In this document: in pieces, positions 15,425 through 53,930 of the stretch
How positions within the stretch are numbered: the first letter of the stretch is position 1
Layout of the letters: every line of letters begins with the position of its first letter
Translations under genes and position numbers: made by a program
Assembly: GCA_903893815.1 (NCBI GenBank)
Contig: CAITNS010000030.1
Location: forward strand, 1 to 64,000
Origin: an uncultured Bacteroidota bacterium
Lineage (GTDB): Bacteria; Bacteroidota; Bacteroidia; B-17B0; Aurantibacillaceae
Direction of reading: 5' to 3'
Length of the DNA: 64,000 nucleotides
Notes under the pieces: model-generated
Database searches by the model: none
Told to the model about the DNA's origin: nothing
What the model saw: the letters and a program-made list of their open reading frames with translations, nothing else

Positions 15425-16858
15425 ATGAAACCCATATTACTATCCTCTCTGTTTTTAATTAGTTCGTTAACTATTAAAGCACAAACCTCTCAAGTAAGAG
15501 AAACATCTCCCTTCAAAAAAATAGAAGTATCAGGCGCAGCCAATGTTGTATTTACACAAAGTGATACGTTAAACTTAAAAGTGGTTGCTGATGAAAAAGA
15601 AATCAATAACATCTTTACTACTTTCGAAAACGAAACTTTAGTGATAAAAGCAAAAGGGAGTTTTACTCATTCATATAAAATATATGTTAGTGGCAATAGC
15701 TTAAATCAAATCACTAGCAGTGGCGCTTCCAAATTTAATTCTACTAACCCTATCACATCTGATAGTTTATCCATTGATGTGTCTGGCGCTAGTGATGTGA
15801 TTTTAAAAGTTAACACAAAAGTGATTGATGTGATGTTAAGTGGCGCGTCTGGTGTTAATTTAGAAGGAAACACACAAACTTTATATAGTACTGTGAGCGG
15901 TGCTTCAGCCTTAAAAGCCTATAAACTCAGTACAGCAATAACCAATGTTACAGCATCTGGTGCTTCATCAGCCAAAGTGTTTGCTAACAATAAAATAAAT
16001 GCCAATGCCACGGGTTCAAGTACTATTAAATTTAAAGGTGAGCCTAAAGAAGTAAGTGCCGAAGCATCAAGCTCTTCATCTATTGCCAAAGTTGTGGGCG
16101 ATGATGTTGCTAAAAAAGCGGGCGATAAAAAAGATTCGACCACTATTAATTTTAGAAATAAAAAATATGTGATTATTAATAAAGACAAAAATTCTGATAC
16201 TAATGTTCCTTCAAAAGATAATGATGATGATTTTCACCATTGGTCGGGATTTGGCATCGGTGTTAATGGATGGCTGTCTAATGGCAATACCTCAATACCA
16301 AAAGGGCAAGAATATATGAAATTGAACTATGGCAAGTCATTAAACTTTCAATTAAATCCTTTCGAAAAAGATTTTCACCTTTATAAAAATTACATCAATT
16401 TGGTTGTGGGTTTAGGATTTGAATGGAATCAATATGAATTTAGCAACAAAACAAAATTAAATCCAGATAGTAGTTATACATACGGCGTGATTGATTCTAC
16501 AAATACTTTCAGCTACAAAAAAAATAGACTAAAAAGTACTTTTATAAATGTGCCCGTATTATTAGAATTAAACACTAACAAAGATCCAGACAAATCATTT
16601 CATTTAGCTTTTGGTGTCATTGGAGGATATAAATTAGGCTCTCGTACTCGCCAAATTATTGAGCAAAACGGAGAGACTATAAAATCAATTAAAAAAGATG
16701 ATTATAACTTAAATCCATTTCGTGTAAATGCCCACGCTAGTGTTGGATACCGAGGAGTTACCATATTTGCAGATTACGCATTAACCCCTTTGTTTGAAAG
16801 CGGAAAAGGTCCGGAATTATACCCTTTTACCATCGGTGTAAAATTAATTTCATTTTAA
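15425..16858 (+). CDS. GIN-domain (DUF2807) protein with C-terminal outer-membrane barrel
   Basis: Secreted or outer-membrane protein of unknown function, 477 residues from ATG 15425 (signal peptide MKPILLSSLFLISSLTIKAQ). The open frame begins at 15335, but those 30 residues lack a signal character. The N-terminal GIN domain (FKKIEVSGAANVVFTQSD) forms a beta-helix with SGAS-type turns recurring about every 20 residues. A low-complexity charged linker follows. The C-terminal about 180 residues (from HHWSGFGIGVNGW to PFTIGVKLISF) resemble a PorT-like eight-stranded barrel. A terminator at 16917 follows. Confidence 0.85.
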   Translation: MKPILLSSLFLISSLTIKAQTSQVRETSPFKKIEVSGAANVVFTQSDTLNLKVVADEKEINNIFTTFENETLVIKAKGSFTHSYKIYVSGNSLNQITSSGASKFNSTNPITSDSLSIDVSGASDVILKVNTKVIDVMLSGASGVNLEGNTQTLYSTVSGASALKAYKLSTAITNVTASGASSAKVFANNKINANATGSSTIKFKGEPKEVSAEASSSSSIAKVVGDDVAKKAGDKKDSTTINFRNKKYVIINKDKNSDTNVPSKDNDDDFHHWSGFGIGVNGWLSNGNTSIPKGQEYMKLNYGKSLNFQLNPFEKDFHLYKNYINLVVGLGFEWNQYEFSNKTKLNPDSSYTYGVIDSTNTFSYKKNRLKSTFINVPVLLELNTNKDPDKSFHLAFGVIGGYKLGSRTRQIIEQNGETIKSIKKDDYNLNPFRVNAHASVGYRGVTIFADYALTPLFESGKGPELYPFTIGVKLISF

Positions 16859-16916: not shown

Positions 16917-16950
16917 AAAACCCTTCTGATTGATAGCAGAAGGGTTTTTT
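16917..16950 (+). terminator. Intrinsic terminator after the GIN-domain gene
   Basis: AAAACCCTTCTG (16917-16928) pairs with CAGAAGGGTTTT (16937-16948) around an 8-base loop ATTGATAG, followed by a U-run to 16950. The loop and flanking CCTTCTG are repeated in the terminator at 17121, implying local duplication. Confidence 0.9.
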
Positions 16951-16982
16951 ACTTTTCAGTTAAATCGATTTTTGTCAAAAAC

Positions 16983-17014
16983 GCTACACTTATCAGTTAG
17001 ATGCGAGCACTTAT
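16983..17014 (+). promoter_or_regulatory. Paired CACTTAT repeats, unit A (LytTR-like operator)
   Basis: CACTTAT occurs at 16987-16993 and 17008-17014, exactly 21 bases apart (two helical turns). This is the geometry of LytTR-family operators. The first copy runs into TCAGTTAG, close to the published LytTR/AgrA-type half-site. A -7-like TACTTTTA begins 39 bases after the start of the second copy. Regulator identity is inferred. Confidence 0.45.
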
Positions 17015-17059
17015 TTATTTGCCATAAAAATGGATATCTATTGAGTTACTTTTACTCAG

Positions 17060-17157
17060 ATTTTAGTTCAATTTGCAAAACGAGCGATTTTTAATTATAG
17101 ACAAACAAACCCGAGAAACGAAAAAGCCCTTCTGATTGATAGCGGAAGGGCTTTTTA
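17060..17157 (+). ncRNA. Candidate small RNA, unit A
   Basis: A transcript of about 100 bases is predicted from a -7-like box TACTTTTA (17047-17054) downstream of the paired CACTTAT repeats and ending at the terminator at 17121-17156. No convincing ORF fits inside. It lies in a convergent gap where no protein-gene promoter is expected, and unit B repeats the layout with nearly identical spacing. The exact 5' end is a guess and transcription is unproven. Confidence 0.4.
17121..17156 (+). terminator. Intrinsic terminator of unit A
   Basis: AAAAAGCCCTTC (17121-17132) pairs with GAAGGGCTTTTT (17145-17156). Two more base pairs, T-G and G-C, close the loop ATTGATAG, which is identical to the loop of the terminator at 16917. 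A strong hairpin with U-run in the plus direction, with no protein gene directly upstream. Confidence 0.85.
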
Positions 17158-17176
17158 AATTTACACTAATCCCAAA

Positions 17177-17212
17177 AAACCTACCACTTATCAAATGAAA
17201 CCTACCACTTAT
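17177..17212 (+). promoter_or_regulatory. Paired 15-base direct repeats, unit B (LytTR-like operator)
   Basis: AAACCTACCACTTAT occurs exactly twice (17177-17191 and 17198-17212), again with a 21-base period and ending in the CACTTAT core shared with unit A. The second copy continues into TAGTTAG. A -7-like TAATTTTA begins 40 bases after the start of the second CACTTAT, matching unit A within one base. Confidence 0.5.
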
Positions 17213-17258
17213 TAGTTAGTGGTTTTTTATGGCAGGTTTAGGTATTAATTTTACACTA

Positions 17259-17346
17259 CGTTCTTTTTCATAGGTTTTGTTTAGTTTAAACCAAAAAAAT
17301 CAGGCTGCGGTGCTTTAAACGGGGATGGGCACAGCAGCCTTTTTTA
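17259..17346 (+). ncRNA. Candidate small RNA, unit B
   Basis: A transcript of about 85-90 bases is predicted between the -7-like box TAATTTTA (17246-17253) and the terminator at 17302-17345. The 5' part contains TTTAGTTTAAACCAAA, then the GC-rich hairpin. No ORF of note. The sequence outside the terminator is not similar to unit A, so if both are transcribed they would be co-regulated but have different targets. Confidence 0.4.
17302..17345. terminator. Bidirectional terminator before asd
   Basis: AGGCTGC (17302-17308) pairs with GCAGCCT (17334-17340), and an inner GTGC pairs with GCAC. A U-run follows on the plus strand, and a run of seven T follows on the minus strand read from asd. It can end both unit B and asd transcripts. 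Confidence 0.85.
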
Positions 17347-17366: not shown

Positions 17367-18356
17367 TTAAACTAGTTTAGCCTCTACCAGATATTCTGCT
17401 ATCTGAACCGCGTTAGTAGCTGCTCCTTTACGTAAATTATCTGATACAATCCAGATATTTAAAGTTTTTGGCTGAGTTTCGTCACGACGAATACGCCCTA
17501 CAAACACTTCATCTTTATTATGAGCATTCATAGGCATTGGATAAATTTGATTCGCTATATCATCTTGTAAAACAACACCTTTTGTGTTATTCATCATCTC
17601 AAAAATATCTTTTACTTCAAATTCGTTCTCAAATTCAATGTTCACACTCTCGCTATGTCCGCCCATTACAGGAATACGAACCGTAGTGGCTGTTAAACGG
17701 ATCGAATCATCGCCCATAATTTTCTTGGTTTCGTTTACCATTTTCATTTCTTCTTTGGTATAGCCATTATCTGTAAACACATCGATTTGAGGAATGACAT
17801 TTAAATCAATTTTGTATTTATACGCCATTTCTCCTTCTCTTCCAGCACGCTCATTCATTAGTTGATCAACTGCCTTCACACCAGTACCAGTTACCGATTG
17901 GTAGGTAGAAACCACCACGCGTTTGATTTTATATTTTTTGTGTAATGGATTTAACACTACTACCATTTGGATAGTAGAACAATTTGGATTTGCAATAATT
18001 TTATCGGTTGCTTTCAATTCGTGTGCATTAATCTCAGGCACTACTAATTTTTTTGTAGCGTCCATACGCCAAGCACTAGAGTTATCAATAACAGTAATTC
18101 CAGCCTCTGCAAATTTCGGAGCCCACTCTAAAGAAGTGCTTCCTCCCGCTGAAAATAAAGCAATTTCAGGTTTTGCCGCAATAGCATCTGTCATAGAGTG
18201 TACCTTATATTGCTTGCCCTTAAATGTAATTTCCTTTCCTACTGATCTTTCTGAAGCTACTGGAATTAAGTCTGTTAAAGGAAAGTTTCTTTCTGCTAAT
18301 ACTTCTAACATTTTTGTGCCTACTAAGCCAGTTGCTCCTACTACTGCAATTTTCAT
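17367..18356 (-). CDS. asd: Aspartate-semialdehyde dehydrogenase
   Basis: NADPH-dependent reduction of aspartyl phosphate to the semialdehyde, the branch point to lysine/diaminopimelate, threonine and methionine. The protein has 329 residues. The nucleotide loop is GATGLVGTKMLEVL at the N-terminus, and the catalytic C126 lies in IIANPNCSTIQM. The substrate-binding region contains GGHSESVNIEF with the catalytic histidine, and VGRIRRD is near the C-terminus. Length and motifs are complete. It is a single gene, ended by the bidirectional terminator at 17302-17345. Confidence 0.97.
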   Translation of the reverse strand: MKIAVVGATGLVGTKMLEVLAERNFPLTDLIPVASERSVGKEITFKGKQYKVHSMTDAIAAKPEIALFSAGGSTSLEWAPKFAEAGITVIDNSSAWRMDATKKLVVPEINAHELKATDKIIANPNCSTIQMVVVLNPLHKKYKIKRVVVSTYQSVTGTGVKAVDQLMNERAGREGEMAYKYKIDLNVIPQIDVFTDNGYTKEEMKMVNETKKIMGDDSIRLTATTVRIPVMGGHSESVNIEFENEFEVKDIFEMMNNTKGVVLQDDIANQIYPMPMNAHNKDEVFVGRIRRDETQPKTLNIWIVSDNLRKGAATNAVQIAEYLVEAKLV

Positions 18357-53246: not shown

Positions 53247-53930
53247 TTAAGCACTAAAGTGTTTTAGCACATCCTCTTCGTAGCTATTGCCAACAGGAAT
53301 TTTTTTATCCCCCAACTGTAACATTTTGTTTCTTAAACTTTCAACCTTTTTAATAGGAACAATAAAAGACCGATGAACTCTCATAAATTCTGTTGAGGGT
53401 AGTTTTTCTAACATCGCTTTCATAGTCATGCGGGCTACAATGGTTTTTTGATTATTAATATAGATTTTTAAATAATCGTCTAAAGCTTCAATGCACATAA
53501 TATCATCTAACATAATTTTCTGTAAGCGATAATCTGCTCTCACAAAAATATGTTGAGCTTTTTGATTATTAGAACTTGCAAAATAATCACGAGCCTTATC
53601 CGTTGCTTGTTTAAACCGTTCAAATGTAAATGGCTTTAATAAATAATCTAAAGCACTTAAATTAAAGCCTTCAACTGCATAGTCAGGACGAGACGTAATA
53701 AAAATCACTAACGTATTTTGCTGAATTTGTTTATACAAATCGATGCCATTTAAATTAGGCATTTCAATGTCTAAAAAAATAATATCGGTTGGAAATTTTT
53801 TCAAGTACTTCAATCCATCCTCCGCATTAGTAAAGGTCTTTTCTATAGTTATCGCTTCTATTTCATGACAAAAATTCTCAATCACCTTTAATGCAATTGG
53901 TTCATCATCTATGGCTATGGCTCTAATCAT
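53247..53930 (-). CDS. LytTR-type response regulator
   Basis: Two-component regulator of 227 residues. The receiver domain has the acidic pair in AIAIDDEP, phospho-acceptor D54 in IIFLDIEMPNLNG and the conserved lysine in LKPFTFERF. The LytTR DNA-binding domain follows from about residue 130 (FVRADYRLQKIMLDDIMCIEAL, then FMRVHRSFIVPI). No histidine kinase is adjacent, so it is an orphan here. Such proteins bind direct repeats two helical turns apart, a geometry found at 16983-17212, though a link is only inferred. Confidence 0.94.
   Translation of the reverse strand: MIRAIAIDDEPIALKVIENFCHEIEAITIEKTFTNAEDGLKYLKKFPTDIIFLDIEMPNLNGIDLYKQIQQNTLVIFITSRPDYAVEGFNLSALDYLLKPFTFERFKQATDKARDYFASSNNQKAQHIFVRADYRLQKIMLDDIMCIEALDDYLKIYINNQKTIVARMTMKAMLEKLPSTEFMRVHRSFIVPIKKVESLRNKMLQLGDKKIPVGNSYEEDVLKHFSA

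Follow-up and report, generated by a model that had tools for sequence, protein, structure and literature searches.

A predicted small RNA gene with agr/VirR-like wiring in uncultured Bacteroidota, very probably controlled by a LytTR-type regulator

Introduction

Regulatory RNAs driven by LytTR proteins are best known from Gram-positive pathogens, in the form of the agr/RNAIII and VirR/VR-RNA systems. The VirS/VirR–VR-RNA system of Clostridium perfringens, as presented in the available excerpts of PMC4963840 and PMC2838878, resembles the circuit proposed here in that its LytTR-type response regulator has a regulatory RNA among its direct targets and the helical phasing of the operator matters. 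The VirR motif, CCAnTT(n=15)CCAGTT (PMC4963840, excerpt), has the same 21-bp period as the CCA(C/G)TT-N15-CCA(C/G)TT arrangement found here, and nearly the same core. By these excerpts the two systems also differ: VR-RNA is 386 nt long and belongs to a Firmicute, whereas the RNA described here is ∼87 nt and belongs to Bacteroidota; the known VirR targets are toxin and other genes, unlike the regulon inferred here; and the genes for VirS/VirR and VR-RNA are dispersed around the genome, while in sister genera here the RNA usually adjoins the regulator gene.

In the AgrC/AgrA–RNAIII system of Staphylococcus aureus, according to the excerpted text of PMC4227749, a LytTR regulator switches on the operon that encodes it together with a neighbouring regulatory RNA gene, as we propose here, and the AgrA repeats are centred near −60, compared with ∼−61 from the inferred start of our RNA. 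Unlike agr/RNAIII, the RNA here is ∼87 nt and has no Rfam gathering match, and the kinase carries a propeller domain. LytTR operators in general consist of two repeats of 9–11 nt with 11–13 nt between them (PMC4847170, excerpt); those found here have 9-nt half-sites and a 12-nt spacer. Conserved intergenic RNAs have also been described from Bacteroidota, among them Rfp18 and other small RNAs of Flavobacterium (PMC9723704, excerpt) and GibS of Bacteroides (PMC7366714, excerpt). These are set apart by their descriptions, the word LytTR being absent from both main texts (PMC9723704, PMC7366714), and the best matches in the open-licence literature contained no report of such a LytTR-RNA circuit in Bacteroidota.

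Here we analyse a stretch of 64,000 nucleotides, referred to as the window, from the genome of an uncultured member of the Bacteroidota. Comparison with its relatives points to a small RNA under operator control, wired much as in agr and VirR, the regulator of which is very probably of the LytTR type.

Results

Two repeat units between convergent genes

A pattern search of the window yields two exact CACTTAT-N14-CACTTAT pairs, at 16987–17014 (unit A) and 17185–17212 (unit B), and none in 100 shuffles. The heptamers begin at 16987 and 17008 in unit A and at 17185 and 17206 in unit B, where longer AAACCTACCACTTAT copies begin at 17177 and 17198. From the start of the second heptamer to the downstream box there are 39 bases in unit A and 40 in unit B. 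Both units sit between convergent genes, an outer-membrane barrel/DUF2807 gene on the plus strand that ends at 16858 and the gene for aspartate-semialdehyde dehydrogenase (asd) on the minus strand at 17367–18356. The initial annotation of this DNA had drawn attention to the positions of the repeats, their 21-base period, their distance from a TA(C/A)TTTTA-type box and the convergent gap, and each of these is borne out (Table 1). It had further described both units as ending in a strong terminator with no ORF; a hairpin with a T-run does close each unit, but a 54-aa ORF with a TTG start (16930–17094) overlaps unit A.

Folding gives z-scores of −3.19 (unit A) and −2.57 (unit B). A simple terminator scan has neither hairpin among its matches, which on our reading reflects a loop above its length limit in unit B and a T-run that lies within the stem in unit A. 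A sigma-70 promoter scan gave no match, the sigma-70 consensus not being the Bacteroidota promoter type. The genome-wide search for repeat pairs that had been suggested at the outset found four exact CACTTAT pairs in the window's genome (G000) and none of the reversed pattern. Across the 87 genomes of the family, CCACTTAT-N13-CCACTTAT, with at most one mismatch, occurs 355 times compared with 20 for the reversed pattern, so the repeat pairs are not chance occurrences.

The promoter-proximal half-site can also pair with the bases just behind it to form a terminator-like hairpin, at 17204–17223 in the window and likewise at two other loci (L290, L287; in L290, GCCACTTACAAAGTGGC followed by T's). 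By means of this hairpin, the operator might also stop read-through from upstream.

Table 1. Positions of the predicted features of units A and B in the window
Feature	Position	Strand	Remarks
Unit A putative operator, half-sites TACACTTAT and AGCACTTAT, 21-bp period	16985..17014	+	Same layout in 5 genomes
Unit A −7-type box TACTTTTA	17047..17054	+	Bacteroidota consensus TAnnTTTG (PMC7366714, excerpt)
Unit A predicted small RNA gene	17060..17157	+	Start inferred from box; terminator ∼17121–17157, loop CTGATTGATAGC
Unit B putative operator, ACCACTTAT-N12-ACCACTTAT, 21-bp period	17183..17212	+	Pattern and matrix searches
Unit B −7-type box TAATTTTA	17246..17253	+	33 bp after operator
Unit B predicted small RNA gene	17259..17345	+	Inferred start; conserved 5′ part GUUCUUU...AGGUUUUGUUUAG
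Unit B terminator hairpin	17302..17345	+	Stem covaries; loop CGGGGAUG at 17320–17327

Conservation of the unit B RNA

The predicted unit B RNA gene was found in 53 of the 87 family genomes, every copy behind a recognisable operator. G099 is a 54th RNA-bearing genome, with operator, box and RNA start in a copy that is cut by the end of the fetched stretch. A covariance model of the RNA body alone, without operator or promoter (R1; 12 sequences, ten from the window's genus and two from G024), matches at E ≤ 1e-3 in 42 of the 87 genomes, including 19 of the 20 in the window's genus. When the DNA behind the regulator gene (see below) was read directly, the RNA was also seen in G060, G061, G062, G069, G070, G072, G084, G086, G087, and G091, and a further model, R3, adds G076. 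R1 has false negatives, since G070 and G086 carry the RNA by reading and have no R1 match. From its search output of 56 rows, four that are antisense to the RNA and one chance match (L061 1403–1492) were set aside, and the weak matches of the first search, at E 0.001–0.01 (among them G000:C30:116182–116250), lie outside the counts. Second matches in G002 and G048 (L081 and L374) have the look of ordinary terminators and were not accepted as RNA copies; model R2, with only three base pairs, was discarded.

In a first alignment of 13 copies, from 11 genomes of the genus together with both copies of G024, the TAAnTTTA box is invariant, the GUUCUUU and GGUUUUGUUUAG stretches are conserved, and the stem shows compensatory changes, with nine of its 14 pairs altered on both sides. 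The loop CGGGGAUG is likewise invariant in this alignment; the genus member G009 reads CAGGGAUU, and most copies from genus g2 have UGGAGAU in its place. Its core, GGRGAU, is found in 53 of the 54 complete copies, the exception being AGGGAU in G009. The loop may resemble CsrA-type GGA sites. In a larger alignment fitted to the model's structure (41 distinct rows, counted from the 45 rows below E 5e-5), 92.7% of cells are paired and double changes occur at 13 of the 14 pairs. The covariation score is 0.849, as against 0.244 for shuffled alignments and at most 0.192 with slid partners.

The operator stands in a nearly constant relation to this RNA. All 55 scored copies (G099 and both copies of G024 included) have an upstream pair of at least 15.9 bits by a matrix built from 23 of these same operators, the lowest scores being those of G012 (15.9 bits) and G074 (16.2 bits). 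TAnnTTT begins 32–33 bp past the pair in 51 of the 55, and GUUC begins 45–48 bp past it in 53; in G041 and G084 the best pair is 67–68 bp from GUUC, one 21-bp step farther. The inferred RNA start in the window lies near ..ACGTTCTTT. Judged by sequence, unit B has its own promoter and an intrinsic terminator, and its RNA has compensatory structure. One genome, G024, has the RNA in duplicate, with 1.8 kb between the copies and a separate operator for each (L024, L051, L292; contig 27, ∼520.9–522.9 kb).

None of the 4227 Rfam families gives a gathering-score match at the locus or at six other loci, and sub-threshold Rfam matches at the locus were taken as chance. In a sample of 395 genomes from the class, searched with few candidates scored per genome such that the RNA-bearing G070 was missed, R3 at E ≤ 1e-3 has matches in 10 genomes outside the family. 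The 11 out-of-family loci that were read have negative best pair scores in the upstream 140 bases and the look of ordinary terminators. The 35 stretches of a pattern scan include records titled Mastigocoleus, Pelagibacteraceae, Geomicrobium, Woesearchaeota, and other non-Bacteroidota, judged by title to be probable chance. As far as this limited sampling reaches, the unit B RNA is likely to be restricted to this family.

Duplex energies were calculated between the RNA and the start regions of six candidate genes (TonB-dependent receptor, kinase, regulator, asd, PBP-like, and barrel genes; 34 gene copies). The mean z-scores range from −0.78 to +0.93, with no target signal among these six genes. 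As a first guess, targets could be outer-membrane transport mRNAs or A-rich start regions that pair with UUUUGUUU.

Unit A

Unit A has the same plan in five genomes of the genus (G000, G019, G003, G017, and G011), in which TACACTTAY or TACAGTTAT is followed by RCACTTAT, 32 bp, a TAC(T/A)TTTA box, and ∼100–120 nt that end in a terminator with the loop CTGATTGATAGC. G004, G008, and G006 have unit B alone at this place, and no unit A was found in the ∼500 bases upstream of unit B in the other 14 RNA-bearing genomes of the genus (a shorter stretch in G009). The initial annotation's proposal of a pair of small RNA genes, each behind an operator of LytTR geometry, is supported, B across the family and A in these five genomes; within the upstream stretches read in the genus, the tandem arrangement was seen in these five alone. 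We regard unit A as a putative second RNA gene, narrower in distribution and with a less canonical version of the unit B operator. It may stem from a local duplication, because the terminator of the upstream gene has the same loop: CTGATTGATAGC is common to the neighbouring terminators at 16926–16937 (upstream gene) and 17132–17143 (unit A). Several other species of the genus likewise have a terminator with this loop ahead of unit B.

A propeller-kinase LytTR pair as candidate regulator

Searches of nine genomes identified ten LytTR genes in the window's genome and six in G010, the sole member of the genus without RNA or operator matches. The best-supported regulator is very probably the LytTR response regulator (Response_reg and LytTR domains) encoded at G000:C58:25696–26442, on a contig other than the window's, and preceded by the gene of a ∼1000-aa kinase with Reg_prop, Y_Y_Y, and His_kinase domains. 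Orthologs at 81% or above occur in every other member of the genus except G010. The regulator is present in 19 of the 20 genus genomes, and its presence matches that of the RNA and operator in all 20.

Across the family, 71 of the 87 genomes have a match to this regulator at E ≤ 1e-80. Of these 71, 65 have the operator, against 3 of the 16 ortholog-free genomes (p = 1.2e-8), and 41 of 71 versus 1 of 16 have an R1 match (p = 1.7e-4), both p values being uncorrected for relatedness. There are exceptions in each direction. G063 and G065 (73% and 60% complete) have operator matches without the regulator, and G090 (86% complete) has RNA and operator with no regulator found; regulator and operators with no RNA found are seen in, for example, G020, G023, G047, and G051, and the models miss true copies. 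The regulator not only co-occurs with the sites but also carries them upstream of its own operon, and 21 of the 28 operon loci have an operator of at least 9 bits immediately before the kinase gene, a count that omits G007, G011, and G050, where the stretches end too early. The seven in which this operator was not seen are G018, G041 (contig edge), G042, G043 (no kinase frame found), G045, G048, and the out-of-family G039.

The RNA is frequently a neighbour of this regulator. In genera g2 and g24, an operator lies 3–867 bp after the regulator gene in 26 of 37 downstream regions, many of which were chosen for matches already seen, and in G078 it lies 5.0 kb past the gene; each of these 27 operators is then followed by the 5′ motif of the RNA. 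Neither operator nor R1 match was found in 10 of the 37 regions, and three of the genomes concerned (G045, G066, and G076) have RNA and operator elsewhere. The 37 regions represent 37 of the 42 regulator-bearing genomes in g2 and g24. Outside them are G020, G051, and G079, with unfetched downstream regions, and two genomes read in other stretches, G048, with the RNA directly behind the regulator gene, and G042, where it is 3.5 kb away. Since the RNA usually follows the regulator in these two genera, the ancestral unit was probably kinase, regulator, operator, and RNA. In the window's genus, we infer, the RNA moved from there to a place next to asd or elsewhere.

Operator geometry and the predicted regulon

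At 63 other operator sites, of which many are orthologous and two are RNA copies that had slipped through the filter, 37 TAnnTTT boxes lie at 31–33, 53–54, or 74–75 bp, that is, in 21-bp steps. Together with the 51 of 55 RNA copies above, these sites put the operator at a set distance upstream of the promoter, in phase with the DNA helix. Of the proteins encoded downstream of these other sites, 22 cluster with kinases and 10 with one receptor family. Pfam scans of one protein per group place a TonB-dependent receptor (CarboxypepD_reg and Plug) behind the operator at 10 loci, one outside the family, and MotA_ExbB behind it in G000 and G020; PBP_like_2 and a barrel-like protein with no Pfam match both follow it in G000, G003, and G004. 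These genes suggest an outer-membrane transport regulon.

The promoter of the TonB-dependent receptor has features of its own. Several of the loci L003, L027, L029, L030, L040, L042, L283, and L289 have an extra half-site-like repeat behind the pair, and the TAnnTTT boxes cluster two more 21-bp steps on, at 74–75 bp.

An operator change in one genome

The RNA operator of G012 has the sequence ACCGGTTAC-N12-ACCGGTTAT, and the operator of its kinase gene is CCCGGTTAT-N12-ACCGGTTAC. Exact CCGGTTAY-N13-CCGGTTAY pairs number 10 in this genome, those of the RNA and the kinase operon among them, and are absent from the nine other genomes searched. With one mismatch there are 13 in G012, compared with 0–2 elsewhere and with two of the reversed pattern in G012 itself, and its count of CCACTTAT pairs is one.

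The G012 regulator differs as well. In an alignment of 19 regulators (18 genus members and G041), it has 13 residues of its own relative to the other genus members. Positions 182, 185, and 186, within the LytTR domain, differ where the other 18 sequences are invariant, and the 10 further residues are at positions that vary elsewhere. A motif filter left 8 of 27 regulators outside this alignment (G009, G024, G042, G048, G020, G023, G047, and G051). PDB sequence searches returned receiver-domain matches and one weak match to the LytTR region (3d6w, E 2e-4). The operator change in G012 is stronger evidence than co-occurrence by itself for a link between the regulator and the RNA. On balance we favour, with some reserve, the reading that a propeller kinase/LytTR/small RNA cassette with agr/VirR logic extends across the family and that in G012 its operators were rewired genome-wide from CCACTTAT to CCGGTTAY along with changes in the LytTR domain, residues 182, 185, and 186 being the candidates, as a natural specificity switch.

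Alternative explanations

The initial annotation had put forward as a candidate driver of both units a LytTR response regulator encoded within the window, at 53247–53930. The operator geometry fits the LytTR class generally, and the best match of this protein in G012 is a reciprocal best one, though only 33% identical. Against it, the protein has no clear ortholog in G012, which has RNA and operators, and a 68% ortholog in G010, where neither was found, and we consider this assignment very unlikely. (The gene adjoins carbonic anhydrase-like and SulP-like genes, the names being guessed from sequence.) A slightly better but still improbable candidate is another LytTR paralogue that regulates through these operators or shares them, for example the one behind a TPR kinase at G000:C69:51580–52323. 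A pair upstream of that operon scores 17.9 bits in G000 and 21.2 bits in G012 by a hand-set matrix, and this regulator, like the C58 regulator, is missing from G010. However, its best matches in the RNA-bearing G001, G002, G004, G007, G009, G013, G014, G015, and G018 are at 39–47%, its ortholog in G003 has no upstream pair above 11 bits, and its pair in G012 retains the ACCACTTAT form that the RNA operator there has lost. The weaker pair upstream of this operon in the window's genome (L154) and the one in G012 point to possible cross-talk between LytTR paralogs.

The remaining alternatives accept the sites and dispute the RNA. The sites could be mere binding or titration sites, or terminator stems, with no functional RNA, and the hairpin that the second half-site of the window forms with downstream bases at 17204–17223 is of the kind that this would predict. 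Such sites would not account for a −7 box that keeps its spacing in 51 of 55 copies, or for a conserved RNA body with compensatory stem changes and a conserved loop downstream of the operator, and we give this explanation very little weight. Least credible is that the conserved transcript encodes a small peptide and does not act as RNA. Some ATG is present in 38 of 48 copies, with one in the terminator loop in the window's genus, yet 10 of the 48 have none, and the longest closed frame (ATG, GTG, or TTG) is 24 aa in one G024 copy (G024a) and does not exceed 19 aa in any of the remaining 47. This 48-copy set omits 16 of 64 entries, namely the RNA-bearing G067, G068, G071, G072, and G088, the cut copy of G099, and 10 entries with no operator behind the regulator gene.

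Discussion

Considered together, these comparisons favour the reading of unit B as the gene of a ∼87-nt regulatory RNA within a LytTR-activated cassette, to which we assign a probability of roughly 0.84. In the proposed mechanism, a β-propeller sensor kinase (Reg_prop, Y_Y_Y, and His_kinase) would phosphorylate the LytTR response regulator, which would then bind two half-sites 21 bp apart, mostly ACCACTTAT with variants. These are centred ∼61 bp upstream of the inferred start at 17259, and the bound regulator would activate transcription from the TAnnTTTA −7 box. It would likewise activate its own operon and a set of outer-membrane transport genes, namely those for the TonB-dependent receptor, ExbB, the PBP-like lipoprotein, and the predicted barrel protein. 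The RNA would end in a hairpin that presents the conserved GGRGAU loop and would probably act post-transcriptionally, on other RNAs. The support for this mechanism comes from genome comparison throughout: the conservation and covariation of the RNA, the geometry of operator and box, the co-occurrence with the regulator, the operators at the kinase gene, the synteny, and the operator change in one genome.

What is gained is a candidate small RNA of Bacteroidota that has a conserved loop and for which both an input and a regulon centred on TonB-dependent transport are predicted. The natural operator change in G012 lends itself to direct tests of how a LytTR domain selects its DNA. The proposed wiring is the same as in the Gram-positive systems and the RNA is apparently unrelated, which suggests that the LytTR-plus-RNA circuit may be older, or more easily re-invented, than has been thought.
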